A DNA stretch of 52,885 nucleotides, taken from NCBI GenBank assembly GCA_009995545.1, contig JAACPI010000008.1:1-52885 (forward strand), given 5' to 3'. The translations under genes and the position numbers were made by a program. Shown one piece after another: positions 15,692-21,251 of the stretch. Every line of letters begins with the position of its first letter. The first letter of the stretch is position 1. The notes beneath the pieces were generated by a model. That model did no database searches. It was not told the origin of the DNA and worked only from the letters and a program-made list of their open reading frames with translations. Source of the stretch: a bacterium (GTDB taxonomy: Bacteria; Patescibacteriota; WWE3; 2-01-FULL-39-13; JAACPI01).

Positions 15692-15756
15692 TGTTTATAT
15701 AGTATAACGTTTTTTGGGTTTTTGTTTGAGTGGGTAAGGGATTTTAAGGGTCGAGC

Positions 15757-15806
15757 GCTGGGCACAGATATGGTGGCTTTTTGCCAACTCACATACTGTG
15801 CCCAGC
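15757..15806. terminator. Long stem-loop after the minus-strand island gene (11-bp perfect stem GCTGGGCACAG/CTGTGCCCAGC)
   Basis: Arms at 15757-15767 and 15796-15806; no clear U tract. Confidence 0.5.
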
Positions 15807-15819
15807 TCTCATTCAGTGC

Positions 15820-17658
15820 TTACTGCGTTTCTTCAACTTCCGTCTCTGTCTCCGGTTCAGGTTCGGGTTCGAGTTCGGGAGTGGGTTGTACTTGTCCACC
15901 AAACTCAAACATCGGCTCGCCGATGATATAAATTTTGATGGAGTAGAGCCAATTCTCTTGAGACCCCTTGTTAACGGTCACAGAAACCTCTTGACCAACT
16001 TGGACGTAGGAACCTGCATCATCCGAGGTGGGTGTAAGGATATACCATGCACCGCCTGACGTATCGTCAACACGGATCTGGAATCGATCTTCCCATACAG
16101 ATTTGTGTGTGACAGTACCCTCGATCTGCAATGTGTTGGTCTGACCAGACAGTGTTGGGTCGTCCGAACGATCGTTGCTGATTGCCTGCTGCAGCTGCCG
16201 GTAGGCATCCTCTAGGTTGGAGGCAACGATAACCGCACTTTCGTTGTTTGCATCTTTGACGCGGACAAAGGATACTCCCGAGTAAGCCCCTGAGGACTCC
16301 CCATTGTTGCCACCACGCCCATTCAGGATGCCGTAGTATACGGGCTCCCCGAAGATGTTTTGGATTTCGACCTGTTCCGGCTCAAAACCTTCCGTGGATA
16401 GGCGCTTGCTGGCGGTGTCCATCAGATCGTCAATCGCGGAGATGTTCTTCAGGCCCGATTCACTGACGTCATACCGTAGCGATTCACCCGTTTTGGGGTT
16501 GACATATACGATCTCTGTGACCGTACTATCGTTTCCCTTGCTTGTGAAGGTTACTTGCCACCACAGTTCATCATCTCCTGCGAAGACGTCATTTACTTTG
16601 TCAACGTCGCGACGGCCGGCCGAATTCCACAGGCTGCAGATTGCTTCTGCGGCGTGAAATTCTCCCCACCAATTCGCATAGTCGCGGATGATATCACGGG
16701 TCCAGATGATGTCGATCCACTCTGGTACCTCTTCAAGTTCGTAGTAGGTTATGTCACCAGTTTGCGGGTCTATAACGGCTGTTCCGACAACTTCGTTTCC
16801 TGTGTAGCCAACCACGTGCTTTAGTCCTGTGGCGGTGTAGAAAGGCTGCCAGTTGTCATCGACTTCCAGCGTGCCCAGGTCCTCCCAAATCATCCCACTG
16901 TTTACTACCCAGTTGAGATAAAAGTACCTGTCTAGCTCGAACTCGTAGAACATACGCGGGCTGTCCACATATTTCATGGCATAGCCTCCACGGAACTCAG
17001 CCTCAGCATCTTTGTTTAGAGCGTCTACGACCAAGTATCCCGGTACGACACCACCTCGGTTCAGGAATCCCCTCCATTGACCATCTCGGATCTTCAGGTC
17101 GACGATGTAATAGGGATGTTTGTTAACCAGTTGAAGGTGTGCTGTCCCAATCTCCAAGTAGCTTCCCATGTCGCTAGGCATCTTGTCTTTTGCCTTTGCC
17201 ACAGCGTTTTCTGGGGTAACTCTTAGAAGACTGTCCAGATCTGTGTCATGGAACTCTTGTGAGGCACCCACAACTTTCCAAATGTCGGCTTTGCCGCGAA
17301 TTTGGGAGTCTACACACATGACCGGAGGTACGATGGCCAAGTTGCCCACCAGAAGTACTGCACCAAAAGCAAGGGTAATTCCCCAAGCCTTGGCATTAGC
17401 ACCAGAATCCGACCCGTAGGCGGTGACTGCTGATGCAACAACTAGTGCTGTTGCTCCTAGTAGTACATAACCTCCCGTTGTGTCTGCCCAGTGAGTGAAG
17501 TAAGGCTGTCCTATGAATATTATCAACAGACTTACCACGAATGTTATCAGCCCAGAGAATATTGCAGCCGGGGCCGCAAAATTTTCACGCGCGGATAGGT
17601 TACAAACCGCACCGAATATGGCTGAAACTGCTCCTGCTACTACCGCATAGATAAACAT
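15820..17658 (-). CDS. Multi-TM N-terminus plus large soluble region with PepSY-like motifs and OB-fold-like C-terminus; function unknown
   Basis: 4 or so N-terminal hydrophobic segments, AVIDPQTGDITYYELEEVPEWID, VYVNPKTGESLRYD, and LQIEGTVTHKSVWEDRFQIRVDD...VSVTVNKG; G+C-rich codon usage. Confidence 0.75.
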   Translation of the reverse strand: MFIYAVVAGAVSAIFGAVCNLSARENFAAPAAIFSGLITFVVSLLIIFIGQPYFTHWADTTGGYVLLGATALVVASAVTAYGSDSGANAKAWGITLAFGAVLLVGNLAIVPPVMCVDSQIRGKADIWKVVGASQEFHDTDLDSLLRVTPENAVAKAKDKMPSDMGSYLEIGTAHLQLVNKHPYYIVDLKIRDGQWRGFLNRGGVVPGYLVVDALNKDAEAEFRGGYAMKYVDSPRMFYEFELDRYFYLNWVVNSGMIWEDLGTLEVDDNWQPFYTATGLKHVVGYTGNEVVGTAVIDPQTGDITYYELEEVPEWIDIIWTRDIIRDYANWWGEFHAAEAICSLWNSAGRRDVDKVNDVFAGDDELWWQVTFTSKGNDSTVTEIVYVNPKTGESLRYDVSESGLKNISAIDDLMDTASKRLSTEGFEPEQVEIQNIFGEPVYYGILNGRGGNNGESSGAYSGVSFVRVKDANNESAVIVASNLEDAYRQLQQAISNDRSDDPTLSGQTNTLQIEGTVTHKSVWEDRFQIRVDDTSGGAWYILTPTSDDAGSYVQVGQEVSVTVNKGSQENWLYSIKIYIIGEPMFEFGGQVQPTPELEPEPEPETETEVEETQ

Positions 17659-17666
17659 TTTTCCTC

Positions 17667-18428
17667 CTAGTAACTGAGTGAAAGGTTGGGATTGGGTAAG
17701 ATAATAGTGTTCAACTCTTGTTGTACTACTGACACTTCCCTGAACTGAACCTCAGAAAGCATTGCCTCCCAAAGTCGACCGGAAGTGTCGAACAAAAAGA
17801 CCTTCTCGGGTCTGGATTCAACGGTGAATGGCTGTAGTAAATTGAGATTGTAGATTTTACCCTCAACCTCGAACGTTACGGCCGTCCCTTCTGGTGACGC
17901 TGCTTCAATTATAAAGGGTTTTGATCTCGCCCAGGTTGACCCTTCGATGTTGAAGGTTATCCCTAAGGAAGAGTACTTAGACCCCCCATTTTTGAGCACT
18001 GCCCAGTTTACAACACTTTCTTTCTCTCTTAACTCCCTTGCCTCCTCTTGGCTAAGCCAATCAAAAACGTCAATTGCGCGAATCTTCTTGGGTTCTGGAG
18101 TTGATGTTGGTGCTATTGTGGGGACTGCGTCTTGCAAAGCTGGGTTTGCCAGCTCTGGCCGACCTCCCACATAAAACAGGGCCCCAATCAGCATGGTAAT
18201 AATCATGAGGAAAATCCCCGCGTTTACAGCCACAAAGAATGGGACAAAGAGTTTTTTAACACCTTCAAATCCTACCGGTACGCTTACCTGAGTTTTCGGT
18301 CTGTCTGGGGTTTTTAATCCCTCAAAGCCCTTTTTTCTCAGGTCTCGTAGATCGTTTTTGCTCCTCAACCACCAGTACTTTACCAGTAGTCTTAAAGCAA
18401 TGACGATCTTTTGTCGTAAGTTCAACAT
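17667..18428 (-). CDS. Single-pass membrane protein, unknown function
   Basis: One strong TM (FFVAVNAGIFLMIITMLIGALFYV); SD GAGGAG before ATG at 18428 rather than 18461. Confidence 0.75.
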   Translation of the reverse strand: MLNLRQKIVIALRLLVKYWWLRSKNDLRDLRKKGFEGLKTPDRPKTQVSVPVGFEGVKKLFVPFFVAVNAGIFLMIITMLIGALFYVGGRPELANPALQDAVPTIAPTSTPEPKKIRAIDVFDWLSQEEARELREKESVVNWAVLKNGGSKYSSLGITFNIEGSTWARSKPFIIEAASPEGTAVTFEVEGKIYNLNLLQPFTVESRPEKVFLFDTSGRLWEAMLSEVQFREVSVVQQELNTIILPNPNLSLSY

Positions 18429-18556
18429 TAGGCTCTCCTCTCTATTCGAATAGACTTGCATTTTGCACTGAATTTTAAATGTTCAACTTTCAACCAGGTG
18501 GTTAAAAGTCCATATAGATTTTTAAAGTGATTAAAAACCTATATAAATACATATCA

Positions 18557-18585
18557 ATTATACCATTTTACCGTATAAGTAACAA
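18557..18585 (-). promoter_or_regulatory. Sigma70-type promoter for 17667-18428
   Basis: Minus strand TTGTTA - 17 bp - TATAAT. Confidence 0.65.
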
Positions 18586-18733
18586 TACTATAGGGTTAAG
18601 GTATATTTAACCTTAGGGTAATTAAACCATGCAACAAAAATAAGTATTTAATACTTCAAATACTATAGAATACGCATGAAATGGTATGTCATGTGTGTAC
18701 TATAAGACTTAATATAAATATTATTTTTTTGAT

Positions 18734-18805
18734 ATAATACTTCTAAGGGGGTTTGTAGACTTGTGATTTTGCGGTCAGCTAAGTTTTCTACAAACCCCCT
18801 CGTTT
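18734..18805 (+). ncRNA. Candidate short RNA: extended -10 (TGATATAAT) followed by GGGGGTTTGTAGA...TCTACAAACCCCC and T5
   Basis: TATAAT at 18734-18739 preceded by TGA; 13-bp stem and T tract within 70 nt downstream. Confidence 0.45.
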
Positions 18806-18814
18806 TTGCCGGTG

Positions 18815-19186
18815 CTACTGATCAACTTCGACCAGTATTTTTGGGACGCATACATGAATTTCACCCTCGCTTTCACAGTAAAAGGTGACATCATTAAATG
18901 GCCCAATTCCAACCGCAGATACCAGTTTTTCTCCTTTTTCAAAAAAGAGTTCCTCGCTAGTACCTTCTTTACTACACTCGTAGTACTTGTTTTCTACTTG
19001 GCAGTAGAAGTGTAGTACGGTAGAGTATCTTCCTGTAGCTGCAACTGCAACCACGTTTCCTGTAGGCGGGTTTGTGTCCACTAAACTTGTAGATACAGCT
19101 CCTCCAAACAGGAACAGGAGTTTTAGAAACATATACAGTGTAAAGATACCCAGGAATGTACTGATCCCGCTATTCTTGTGAGACAT
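18815..19186 (-). CDS. Small membrane-anchored/exported protein with paired cysteines
   Basis: N-terminal hydrophobic segment then FYCQVENKYYECSKEG...FYCESEGEIHVCVP. Confidence 0.65.
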   Translation of the reverse strand: MSHKNSGISTFLGIFTLYMFLKLLFLFGGAVSTSLVDTNPPTGNVVAVAATGRYSTVLHFYCQVENKYYECSKEGTSEELFFEKGEKLVSAVGIGPFNDVTFYCESEGEIHVCVPKILVEVDQ

Positions 19187-19197
19187 TGTTTTTTCCT

Positions 19198-19374
19198 TTA
19201 CTTAGAACGGGGGCCGTTGGAGTGAAGAACTCCCCAGCACTTGGAACACGAATACGTTACAAAGTATGTGAAACCTCCTCCGTACATGGTTTTCACCACC
19301 GAGGTGAGTTCCTCTTTGCAATGAGGGCACTTGGGATGTGGTCCCTGGCCCTTCGGTCGTAGTAGGTTTGTCAT
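19198..19374 (-). CDS. Small zinc-ribbon-like protein
   Basis: CPHCKEEL...YSCSKCWG two CxxC knuckles; SD GGGGAG before ATG at 19374. Confidence 0.6.
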   Translation of the reverse strand: MTNLLRPKGQGPHPKCPHCKEELTSVVKTMYGGGFTYFVTYSCSKCWGVLHSNGPRSK

Positions 19375-19385
19375 CTTTCTCCCCT

Positions 19386-19631
19386 TTACTTGCACCAAAC
19401 ACCCGAAAATCCGTAGAACTCTCCGCCAAAGGCTTTAGTTATAAAATACCCATAACAGGGGCCTTCTACTCCTGGTGGAGAGTTTACCGGTACCCATTTC
19501 AACTGAGTTTGTTCCTCTACAGTGCTTGTAGTCGGGCCAAACTTTTGTGAATCTAGAGTTTGGGCTGGTGCAGGTGCACAAGCTCCAAACAAAAACAAAG
19601 CCAGTACTAGTGCACCAATTAAGCTTTTCAC
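19386..19631 (-). CDS. Small lipoprotein
   Basis: GTG start at 19631 with SD AAAGGAGA (19638-19645); VKSLIGALVLALFLFGACAPAPAQ lipobox (FGAC). Confidence 0.65.
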   Translation of the reverse strand: MKSLIGALVLALFLFGACAPAPAQTLDSQKFGPTTSTVEEQTQLKWVPVNSPPGVEGPCYGYFITKAFGGEFYGFSGVWCK

Positions 19632-19667
19632 TCTATGTCTCCTTTTAGTTGGGTTGGATTTAAACGA

Positions 19668-19720
19668 TTGCCTTTCGACACAGTAAATACAGTGTCTGTA
19701 TTCACAATGCCAAAAGGCAA
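19668..19720 (-). promoter_or_regulatory. Structured leader with two mutually exclusive hairpins upstream of the lipoprotein gene
   Basis: Outer stem TTGCCTTT/AAAGGCAA (19668-19675/19713-19720); inner AATACAG-TGT-CTGTATT (19686-19702) competes with GACAC...GTGTC (19677-19696 region). Confidence 0.45.
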
Positions 19721-19773
19721 AAAACACCAGCAAATTTTAAATGTACTTTGCCGGTAATTAGTGTTTTAAACAC

Positions 19774-19933
19774 AAAAAAACCGGCCAGTACAGCCGGTTA
19801 AGAGTTTTAAACCTTATGAACGGCCATACAGTATGGCCGGTTGTAAATGATTTTAGATCACGGTTTTTGCAAAGTTTACCAAAGGTAAAACCAGTCTTTG
19901 CATAACTCCCTAAAATCCAAGGCGTTATTTAAT
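19774..19933 (-). ncRNA. Candidate structured ~160-nt RNA ending in an intrinsic terminator
   Basis: Promoter just upstream; nested stems 19849-19856/19910-19917, 19868-19874/19896-19902, 19875-19880/19884-19889; hairpin 19821-19839; terminator AACCGGC/GCCGGTT plus T7. Confidence 0.6.
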
Positions 19934-19939
19934 GATTAA

Positions 19940-19968
19940 AATATACACAAATAACTATAAGATGTCAA
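19940..19968 (-). promoter_or_regulatory. Consensus-like sigma70 promoter on minus strand
   Basis: TTGACA (19963-19968 rc) - 17 bp - TATATT (19940-19945 rc). Confidence 0.75.
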
Positions 19969-20040
19969 GTAAATTTAGTAAAATTAAGCGGAGTTTTATG
20001 GGTTACTATTAGCCTTATAACAACAACAAATAAGATTGAT

Positions 20041-20072
20041 AGTATATACTGAGTATATACTTAGTATATACT
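20041..20072. repeat. Three copies of the 10-bp palindrome AGTATATACT at 11-bp period
   Basis: 20041-20050, 20052-20061, 20063-20072. Confidence 0.9.
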
Positions 20073-20102: not shown

Positions 20103-21251
20103 CTATTCAACAAGCTTAATTTCCTCTTCGGCAAGTTCCTTTGTTGCTTTTGCTTCTTTTAACTTTGGTTTGTTATCTTTGCTCTTTTCCGATTCTTCGA
20201 TATTTTTAAAGCTCCTACCCATTTGTTTTACCCTAGTTTCTGAAATTTGTTGGTAATCTTTATATGCTGTGTCAAAGCTCCTACCTAACTTTTCAAACTC
20301 ACCTGTAAATTTTGTAAAGTTGTCTTTAAAAACTGCAATGTGTTTTATAACATCTTTAAGGTTTTGTTCGTAATAAAAGTTTCTGTATCCTTGCATTATT
20401 GTTCTGGCTATAGCATAAATGCTAAAGGGGGAGGCAATAATTATTTTTTTAGCAAAAGCTTCTTCTACAAGGGCTGGGAATTCTTTATTTATATAAGTAA
20501 AAACAACCTCGTTTGGAACAAACATTATGGCAAAATCTAAAGTTCCTTCTTCACTATTTATATATTCTCTTTTGGTAATATCTCTTAATTTAGTTCGTAC
20601 ATCTAACTCAAATTGCTTTTTTAAATTGGTTAAGTGAGTTTTATCTTCGGCATCGGTCATTTTTAATATTGCAGCTAAAGGAAATTTTGCATCTACACTA
20701 ATAGTGCGCTTTTCGGGAAGCATTATTATTACATCGGGTCTAACTCCACTGTCCATAACTTCTTGGGTTTTATAATGTACTCCTTTTTCAAGTCCGCTAC
20801 TTATTAGAATATCTTCTAATATTTTTTCTCCCCACTCTCCACGTACCTGGTTGTTGCTCATTACTCTGGCAAGTTTTGCAGCACTTGTTTCTAAATCTTT
20901 AGTAGCTTTTTGATGTTCTTCGATTTGCCTCTTTATATCACCAAAATACTTCATATTTTCTGTTCGGCTTTCTATTAGTTCTTTATGTCGTTTTTCTAGA
21001 TCTTCTTCAATTTTTTTAACCATTCCTTCCATAGCCTCTTTTTTATTTTTTAAATCAGTTGAAATCACTTCTTTATCTGCTTTTAAAGCATCCTTAGAAA
21101 TTTGAGTTAATTTTCCCATTCCCTCGTTCATTAGTTCATTAAACACATTTTTAAAATCTTCTTTTTGTTTTTTCTCCATATCTCTCTTAAACCAAAGTAA
21201 AAAGAGTAAGATTATAATTGTTACAGTAGTAAGGGCAATTATTATTTGCAT
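20103..21251 (-). CDS. rmuC: RmuC family DNA recombination protein
   Basis: Coiled coil then VRGEWGEKILEDILISSGLEKGVHYKTQ, VRPDVIIMLPEKRTISVDAKFPLAA. Confidence 0.92.
   Translation of the reverse strand: MQIIIALTTVTIIILLFLLWFKRDMEKKQKEDFKNVFNELMNEGMGKLTQISKDALKADKEVISTDLKNKKEAMEGMVKKIEEDLEKRHKELIESRTENMKYFGDIKRQIEEHQKATKDLETSAAKLARVMSNNQVRGEWGEKILEDILISSGLEKGVHYKTQEVMDSGVRPDVIIMLPEKRTISVDAKFPLAAILKMTDAEDKTHLTNLKKQFELDVRTKLRDITKREYINSEEGTLDFAIMFVPNEVVFTYINKEFPALVEEAFAKKIIIASPFSIYAIARTIMQGYRNFYYEQNLKDVIKHIAVFKDNFTKFTGEFEKLGRSFDTAYKDYQQISETRVKQMGRSFKNIEESEKSKDNKPKLKEAKATKELAEEEIKLVE

Follow-up and report, generated by a model that had tools for sequence, protein, structure and literature searches.

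The window analysed here, i.e., the whole stretch of 52,885 nucleotides of DNA from a bacterium of the phylum Patescibacteriota, carries on its minus strand an RNA that, judged from its sequence, structure, and gene context, probably belongs to a new family of cis-acting transcription-attenuation leader RNAs, most likely an orphan riboswitch class. The evidence is of the kind by which riboswitch candidates are recognized, namely a conserved, covarying structure in the 5' leaders of a defined gene set.

Structure of the Leader in the Window

Reading of the minus strand confirmed the stems, the −35/−10 promoter, and the terminator of the original prediction at their places, including both the closing stem and the compound hairpin of hairpin (a) (Table 1). 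The promoter TTGACA-17-TATATT was the top promoter-like site of 15 in the 6 kb that were scanned (15.5–21.5 kb) and would place the transcription start of the window leader near 19933. A −10-like box was also read by eye 7–40 nt 5' of the CCUUG motif in nearly every member of the family. Against dinucleotide shuffles, the folding energy of the 195-nt stretch (−53.6 kcal/mol) had a z of −4.5, and that of the entire 302-nt leader preceding the first gene (−100.6 kcal/mol) a z of −6.5. Structure continues further downstream in the leader, as far as about 19660, and includes a third terminator-like hairpin and one with 25-nt arms. The first downstream gene encodes a predicted lipoprotein of 81 aa with a Shine-Dalgarno sequence (AAAGGAG, 19645–19639), a single hydrophobic N-terminal segment with a lipobox-like LFGAC, and no Pfam match; it is the start of the genes of a GC-rich island.

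Two details of the terminator region differ from the original prediction. Terminator (c) was found with a T run of seven instead of eight, and hairpin (b), which had been described as an element of its own, is present but is not a separate module, as it equals the terminator of other members minus the U-run. Terminator (c), 43 nt further downstream, is a second copy of (b) (direct repeats D2 and D3). From the sequence, (c) is the predicted working terminator in the window and (b) the ancestral terminator position. The linker AUUUA-C together with AACCGGC would supply the 3' half of an internal loop between P1 and a further, proposed helix, P0, as well as the 3' strand of P0 itself (GGC, 19838–19836), and in the window this strand doubles as the 5' arm of hairpin (b).

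Table 1. Features of the leader RNA and of the first gene behind it in the window, with the basis for each assignment.
Feature	Position	Strand	Basis
Sigma-70-type promoter, TTGACA-17-TATATT	19940..19968	-	Consensus scan, 11/12 matches
P0 5' strand (GCC) and invariant UUG, G-CCUUG	19918..19923	-	CCUUG invariant in 18/18; P0 pair columns
Aptamer-like hairpin (a)	19849..19917	-	Covariation; structure-blind alignment
P1, GATTTTAG/CTAAAATC, closing stem of hairpin (a)	19917-19910/19856-19849	-	
Compound hairpin TGCAAAG-ACTGGT-TTTACC-TTT-GGTAAA-CTTTGCA, inside P1	19902-19868	-	
P2	19902-19896/19874-19868	-	
Bulge ACUGGU	19895-19890	-	
P3	19889-19884/19880-19875	-	
Kink-turn	19858..19908	-	Signature in 15/16 full members; 2-bp C-helix covaries
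Kink-turn, non-bulged strand	GA 19908-19907, GU 19906-19905	-	
Kink-turn, bulged strand	AC 19864-19863, 3-nt loop CGU 19862-19860, GA 19859-19858	-	
Invariant linker AUUUA-C and AACCGGC	19836..19848	-	Most conserved stretch of the family
Hairpin (b), CGGCCATA-CTG-TATGGCCG	19839-19821 (listed as 19819..19842)	-	Alignment with L101-L114; partial-transcript folding
Intrinsic terminator (c), AACCGGC-N7-GCCGGTTTTTTT (RNA: AACCGGC-UGUACUG-GCCGGUUUUUUU)	19774..19799	-	Terminator scan
Third terminator-like hairpin, ACCGGCAAA...UUUGCUGGU-GUUUUUU	19719..19755	-	Sequence; fold of −13 kcal/mol
Long hairpin with 25-nt arms, just 5' of the ribosome-binding site	19668..19720	-	Inverted repeat I1; −31.8 kcal/mol
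First downstream gene, predicted lipoprotein of 81 aa, GTG start	19386..19631	-	ORF read from the sequence

The flanks of the leader were inspected as well. Between the leader promoter and rmuC, three perfect palindromes (AGTATATACT) with 11-bp spacing together form a 36-bp inverted repeat (20040–20072). None were expected in shuffles, and they perhaps serve as a repressor operator or mark where the rmuC transcript ends. The RmuC protein itself (20103–21251) is 24–25% identical to RmuC of other genomes in the same order and has no near relative in GTDB contigs. On the other side lies the GC-rich island (15700–19800; 45–53% versus about 30%), encoding the lipoprotein, a zinc-ribbon-like protein of 58 aa, and proteins of 123, 264, and 612 aa without Pfam match. 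No relative of the 264-aa protein was found in viral contigs, and none of the 612-aa protein in viral contigs, the class, or GTDB genome contigs; matches of 20–26% identity link the 612-aa protein to membrane proteins of lactobacillus phages and plasmids.

Relatives and Distribution

The original prediction recognized no 6S, tmRNA, SRP, RNase P, or known riboswitch core, which agrees with the database scans. At the gathering score, Rfam 15 recognized only a 16S rRNA and one tRNA in the whole window, permissive settings yielded nothing credible for the RNA, and 4227 Rfam 15 models (6S, tmRNA, SRP, RNase P, riboswitches, etc.) at E ≤ 1 gave a single unrelated weak match. BLASTN against the 96 nearest genomes and phage records returned chance DNA matches only.

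Relatives were obtained with covariance models, the E-values of which are per genome and rough. Model R1, built from the window sequence alone and the structure of the original prediction, was used to search 380 genomes of the phylum and matched three of them over the full length: G175 (55.8 bits, E = 7e-10), G296 (53.3 bits, 4e-9), and G339 (32 bits, 2e-4). The four-sequence model R2 added G330, G028, and G228. Independently of structure, 381 genomes from another class were searched for the pattern CCTTG, gap, AWTTANAACYGG, gap, CYGGTT, which gained G528 and G701 along with two false matches (L065 and L067, dismissed by eye), and the reversed control gave none. Model R3 then added G031, G786, G812, G759, G839, G815, and G814; in the window's own class it found only G028 and G031, and in the order of G701 nothing further. 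R1–R3 matches at E-values of 0.002–0.05 were mostly other AACCGGC terminators and were not accepted as members. Scanning viral contigs with a pattern gave three matches, none of which R3 matched.

In total, 16 full-length members (the window and 15 further genomes) and two shortened copies (G151 and G112) were identified among 926 distinct genomes of the phylum. Members thus occur patchily in about 2% of the genomes with one copy each, and a mobile repeat (MITE) was rejected as an explanation since the RNA is single copy in its genome. No description of the motif was found in the literature that was searched, which lay mostly outside subscription journals.

Conserved Structure and Covariation

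The prediction of a novel structured RNA called for covarying stems among homologues, and this check came out strongly positive. In the model-based alignment of all 18 copies, which is biased towards the fitted structure, 94.8% of the cells are standard pairs and 23 of 27 pairs are changed on both sides, with two-sided changes in every pair of P1–P3 except one. None of 500 shuffles equalled the observed pairing and covariation, and pairing fell to 31–46% when partners were slid by 1–3 columns. To avoid the bias of the model-based alignment, MAFFT was used to align the 16 full members anew without structure (alignment A9). RNAalifold applied to A9 recovered P1, P2, and the 2-bp kink-turn helix; two-sided changes were seen at 16 of the 18 pairs. 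Furthermore, G528 and G701 form the helices P1–P3, about which the pattern that found both says nothing.

The consensus begins with (G/A)CCUUG, P1 (8 bp), N-GA-GY, P2 (6–7 bp), a bulge NNN(G/A)GU, and P3 (4–6 bp; reduced in G839, G815, and G814), and continues on the 3' side with P2', RC-NNN-GA-N, P1', AWUUA-N-AACYGGC, and the terminator. CCUUG is invariant in all 18 copies and the 3' AWUUA-N-AACCGG is near-invariant; with its last six bases, AACCGG, the latter also supplies the 5' arm of an intrinsic terminator just before a gene. A 5' extension of 10–40 nt before CCUUG, mostly ending in AACATCG or ATAACG, was observed in the window and at L101, L103, L104, L108, L112–L114, L115, and L116; it is absent from the TerC-type leaders, the transcripts of which are expected to begin near the first P0 base.

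The internal part of the hairpin corresponds to a predicted kink-turn (K-turn). The standard rule demands a three-nucleotide bulge followed by G.A and A.G (PMC4316175), and this signature, N-GA-G opposite C-NNN-GA-N, was read from the sequence of 15 of the 16 full members, with L102 lacking the consensus. In these 15, the RNA matches the K-turn definition by sequence (C helix, 3-nt bulge, G.A and A.G), and its C-helix covaries as GC/GC, GU/AC, and AC/GU. The two shortened copies keep CCUUG, AAUUA, and AACCGG, with a 4-bp stem in place of the K-turn hairpin. Between the AACCGG terminator and NUDIX- and HIT-like genes, their loci, L133 (G151:C8:45340-45800) and L134 (G112:C1:202380-202850), contain a conserved stretch (AACCTTTGTACTAGT...CTTTAGT...) that appears to be structured and may be a second RNA.

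A standard K-turn in nearly all full members invites the explanation that read-through is set by a protein, either a K-turn-binding one (L7Ae/YbxF-like) or an antitermination protein. L7Ae-family proteins bind K-turns (PMC4316175), and the retention of CCUUG, AAUUA, and AACCGG in the shortened copies is consistent with such an attenuator. However, these copies are without the K-turn, riboswitches too use K-turns as scaffolds, and the loci share no protein gene; we consider control by a protein unlikely.

Genes behind the RNA

The original prediction left two options, a stand-alone ncRNA or a terminator-controlled leader, and the genes behind the RNA argue for the second. The next gene encodes a TerC protein (PF03741) in six of the 16 full members (G296, G228, G701, G786, G812, and G759), a UPF0182 protein (PF03699) in five (G330, G839, G815, G814, and G175), and an FAD-dependent oxidoreductase (DAO, PF01266) in one (G339), with the proteins of G812, G759, G815, and G814 assigned by sequence similarity to Pfam-tested ones. 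The remaining four have other proteins, mostly membrane or exported, i.e., the island lipoprotein in the window and a membrane or small protein without known family in G528, G028, and G031. In 11 of the 16 members, a start codon on the same strand lies no more than about 40 nt past the U-run, and in G330 and G839 it follows directly. Since the next genes are non-random and start codons lie close after the U-run, a cis-acting leader is favoured over a free sRNA by sequence context, on counts that are small (16 of 926 genomes, patchy).

In G701 (L107), TerC is followed by UPF0182, and in G228 (L105) by DAO, so that the three targets appear to belong together. TerC or TerC-like genes (DUF475-type by eye), UPF0182, and DAO-type FAD oxidoreductases recur around the RNA at L103 (G330), L107, and L105, which suggests a functional set.

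The less favoured option, a trans-acting sRNA with its own promoter and terminator behind which the genes are incidental, draws on the presence of these two elements, on the variable upstream genes and the private promoter, and on the window, L101, L104, and L108, where second terminators stand in tandem and the next gene is 84–796 nt away. A free sRNA would, however, neither be expected to have a fixed gene relation such as that to TerC and UPF0182 nor require start codons 0–40 nt past the U-run, and no invariant single-stranded seed for target pairing was found beyond parts of the P0/terminator element. We regard a stand-alone sRNA as quite improbable.

The TerC genes also bring the yybP-ykoY Mn2+ riboswitch to mind, the fold of which has two docked helical legs and conserved L1 and L3 loops. 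The B. subtilis TerC gene meeY/ykoY is under a Mn-responsive riboswitch, and TerC proteins move Mn2+ (PMC10550928). The new RNA is likewise a leader of TerC-family genes and has a GGGGAG-like stretch 5' of P2. In contrast to yybP-ykoY, it is a linear, kinked hairpin of P1–P2–P3 without the branched two-leg architecture, its GGAG is accounted for by the K-turn, its other main targets are UPF0182 and DAO, and the Rfam scans gave no yybP-ykoY match, all of which makes a divergent member of this class very improbable.

Hardly credible at all is a ribosome-stalling leader peptide, as the Leu/Val-rich 16-codon ORF within hairpin (a) of the window (ATGCAAAGACTGG...TAA, with ATG at 19903 after GGGAGTT) is not conserved (no ATG there in L106, an unrelated short peptide in L100), its frame is not kept while the helices covary at nearly every position, and its GGAG lies just 2 nt from the ATG and is part of the K-turn.

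Proposed P0 Helix and Switch

The preferred reading as a transcription-attenuating leader, and most likely an orphan riboswitch, requires a state that competes with the terminator. A helix that could provide it, P0, was proposed by RNAalifold on A9 without having been entered beforehand: the base before CCUUG and its CC pair with GG(C/U) of AACCGG(C/U). P0, as (G/A)CC/GG(C/U), can form in 18 of 18 copies; its outer pair is A-U in L100 (G296) and L107 and G-C in the other 16. In L107, three strands change together (A, U, A), and the terminator 3' arm keeps pairing. The terminator uses the bases of GG(C/U) for its own 5' arm, so that only one of the two structures, P0 or the terminator, would form at a time. 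The terminator is present in nearly all members, and the case for its competition with P0 comes from one covarying pair, which may have changed just once, among related TerC leaders. With 3 bp, of which two are invariant, P0 is short, and minimum-energy folding alone does not predict it. The loop that it closes, UUG/AWUUA-N-AACC, holds the most conserved bases of the family, and exactly this P0/internal-loop part is kept by the shortened copies G151 and G112. The AACCGG stem is not merely the common terminator stem of these genomes, as only one other terminator with ACCGG was found in 286 kb of the loci.

The switch of the original prediction, an alternative pairing of GGTTTT with AAAACC within stem (a), is not conserved, and pairing of the 5' (G/A)CC with GG(C/U) of the terminator 5' arm is better supported. 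An antiterminator formed by the GGU bulge and AACC was likewise discarded, its register being inconsistent and covariation unsupportive; the weak couplings of columns 33:89 and 35:90 were not significant among the thousands of column pairs.

We infer an ON switch that responds to a ligand. In the ON state, the 5' (G/A)CC would pair with GG(C/U) of the terminator 5' arm as P0 beside P1 and thereby close the conserved internal loop UUG/AWUUA-N-AACC next to P1, onto which the K-turn would fold back the distal stem and the GU bulge to create a binding site. With ligand bound, P0 would hold, the terminator would be blocked, and the gene would be transcribed; without ligand, AACCGG would pair with the downstream CCGGUU and transcription would stop.

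In the window, this decision would have to pass through the duplicated terminator. Partial-transcript folding predicted that hairpin (b) forms when its 5' arm is available, with the arm of (c) left free. When the 5' arm of (b) was withheld, pairing of the (b) 3' arm with the (c) 5' arm was favoured over terminator (c) (−14.1 vs. −11.7 kcal/mol). Given these outcomes, hairpin (b) could relay the P0 state to terminator (c): capture of the 5' arm of (b) by P0 would free the 3' arm, which would capture the 5' arm of (c) and prevent termination, whereas without capture by P0 both (b) and (c) would form and transcription would end.

Because TerC genes follow the RNA, our guess by analogy for the ligand is an ion handled by TerC, e.g., the divalent metal Mn2+; the variety of next genes does not point to any one ligand. 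Tentatively, the RNA might be a new riboswitch class, so far known only from small-genome bacteria of one phylum, that builds its binding loop from the first nucleotides of the transcript and the 5' arm of the terminator and responds to an ion that both TerC and UPF0182 handle. If so, UPF0182 proteins would be part of the homeostasis of that ion.

Comparison with Known Systems

To our knowledge, regulation in uncultivated Patescibacteria-like bacteria is almost unexplored. A review from 2024 mentions riboswitches only as future tools (PMC11665869). This RNA family, which covaries and is clearly associated with particular genes, offers a concrete entry into the field: the RNA comprises about 100 nt, can be transcribed in vitro, and is amenable to ligand screening. 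Moreover, a shared regulator ties the unstudied UPF0182 proteins to TerC metal transporters and makes a guess at UPF0182 function testable.

Closest in logic is the HMP-PP (thiS motif) riboswitch, in which conserved aptamer nucleotides overlap the intrinsic terminator (PMC6478431). As in that riboswitch, terminator and bound state would be mutually exclusive in the new RNA, and the ligand would give read-through. However, sequence, fold, and genes differ, and the new RNA has a separate K-turn hairpin before the terminator and shares only the 5' arm of the latter. As in SAM-I and other K-turn riboswitches, the K-turn would bend the helix so that the distal part can meet a receptor (PMC4316175); unlike SAM-I, the new RNA has no multi-helix junction and no Rfam match, and its genes are unrelated to SAM. 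Orphan riboswitch candidates have been proposed on the same types of evidence, i.e., covariation, position in front of a gene set, and an expression platform, which for the new RNA is a proposed one (PMC2864571, PMC8632094, PMC11109978). In contrast to those candidates, the new RNA is unmatched by the Rfam 15 models and comes from a small-genome phylum, with its narrow distribution among the genomes there. We rate it as a new RNA family with a device type that is already known, that of a terminator-controlled, riboswitch-like leader.
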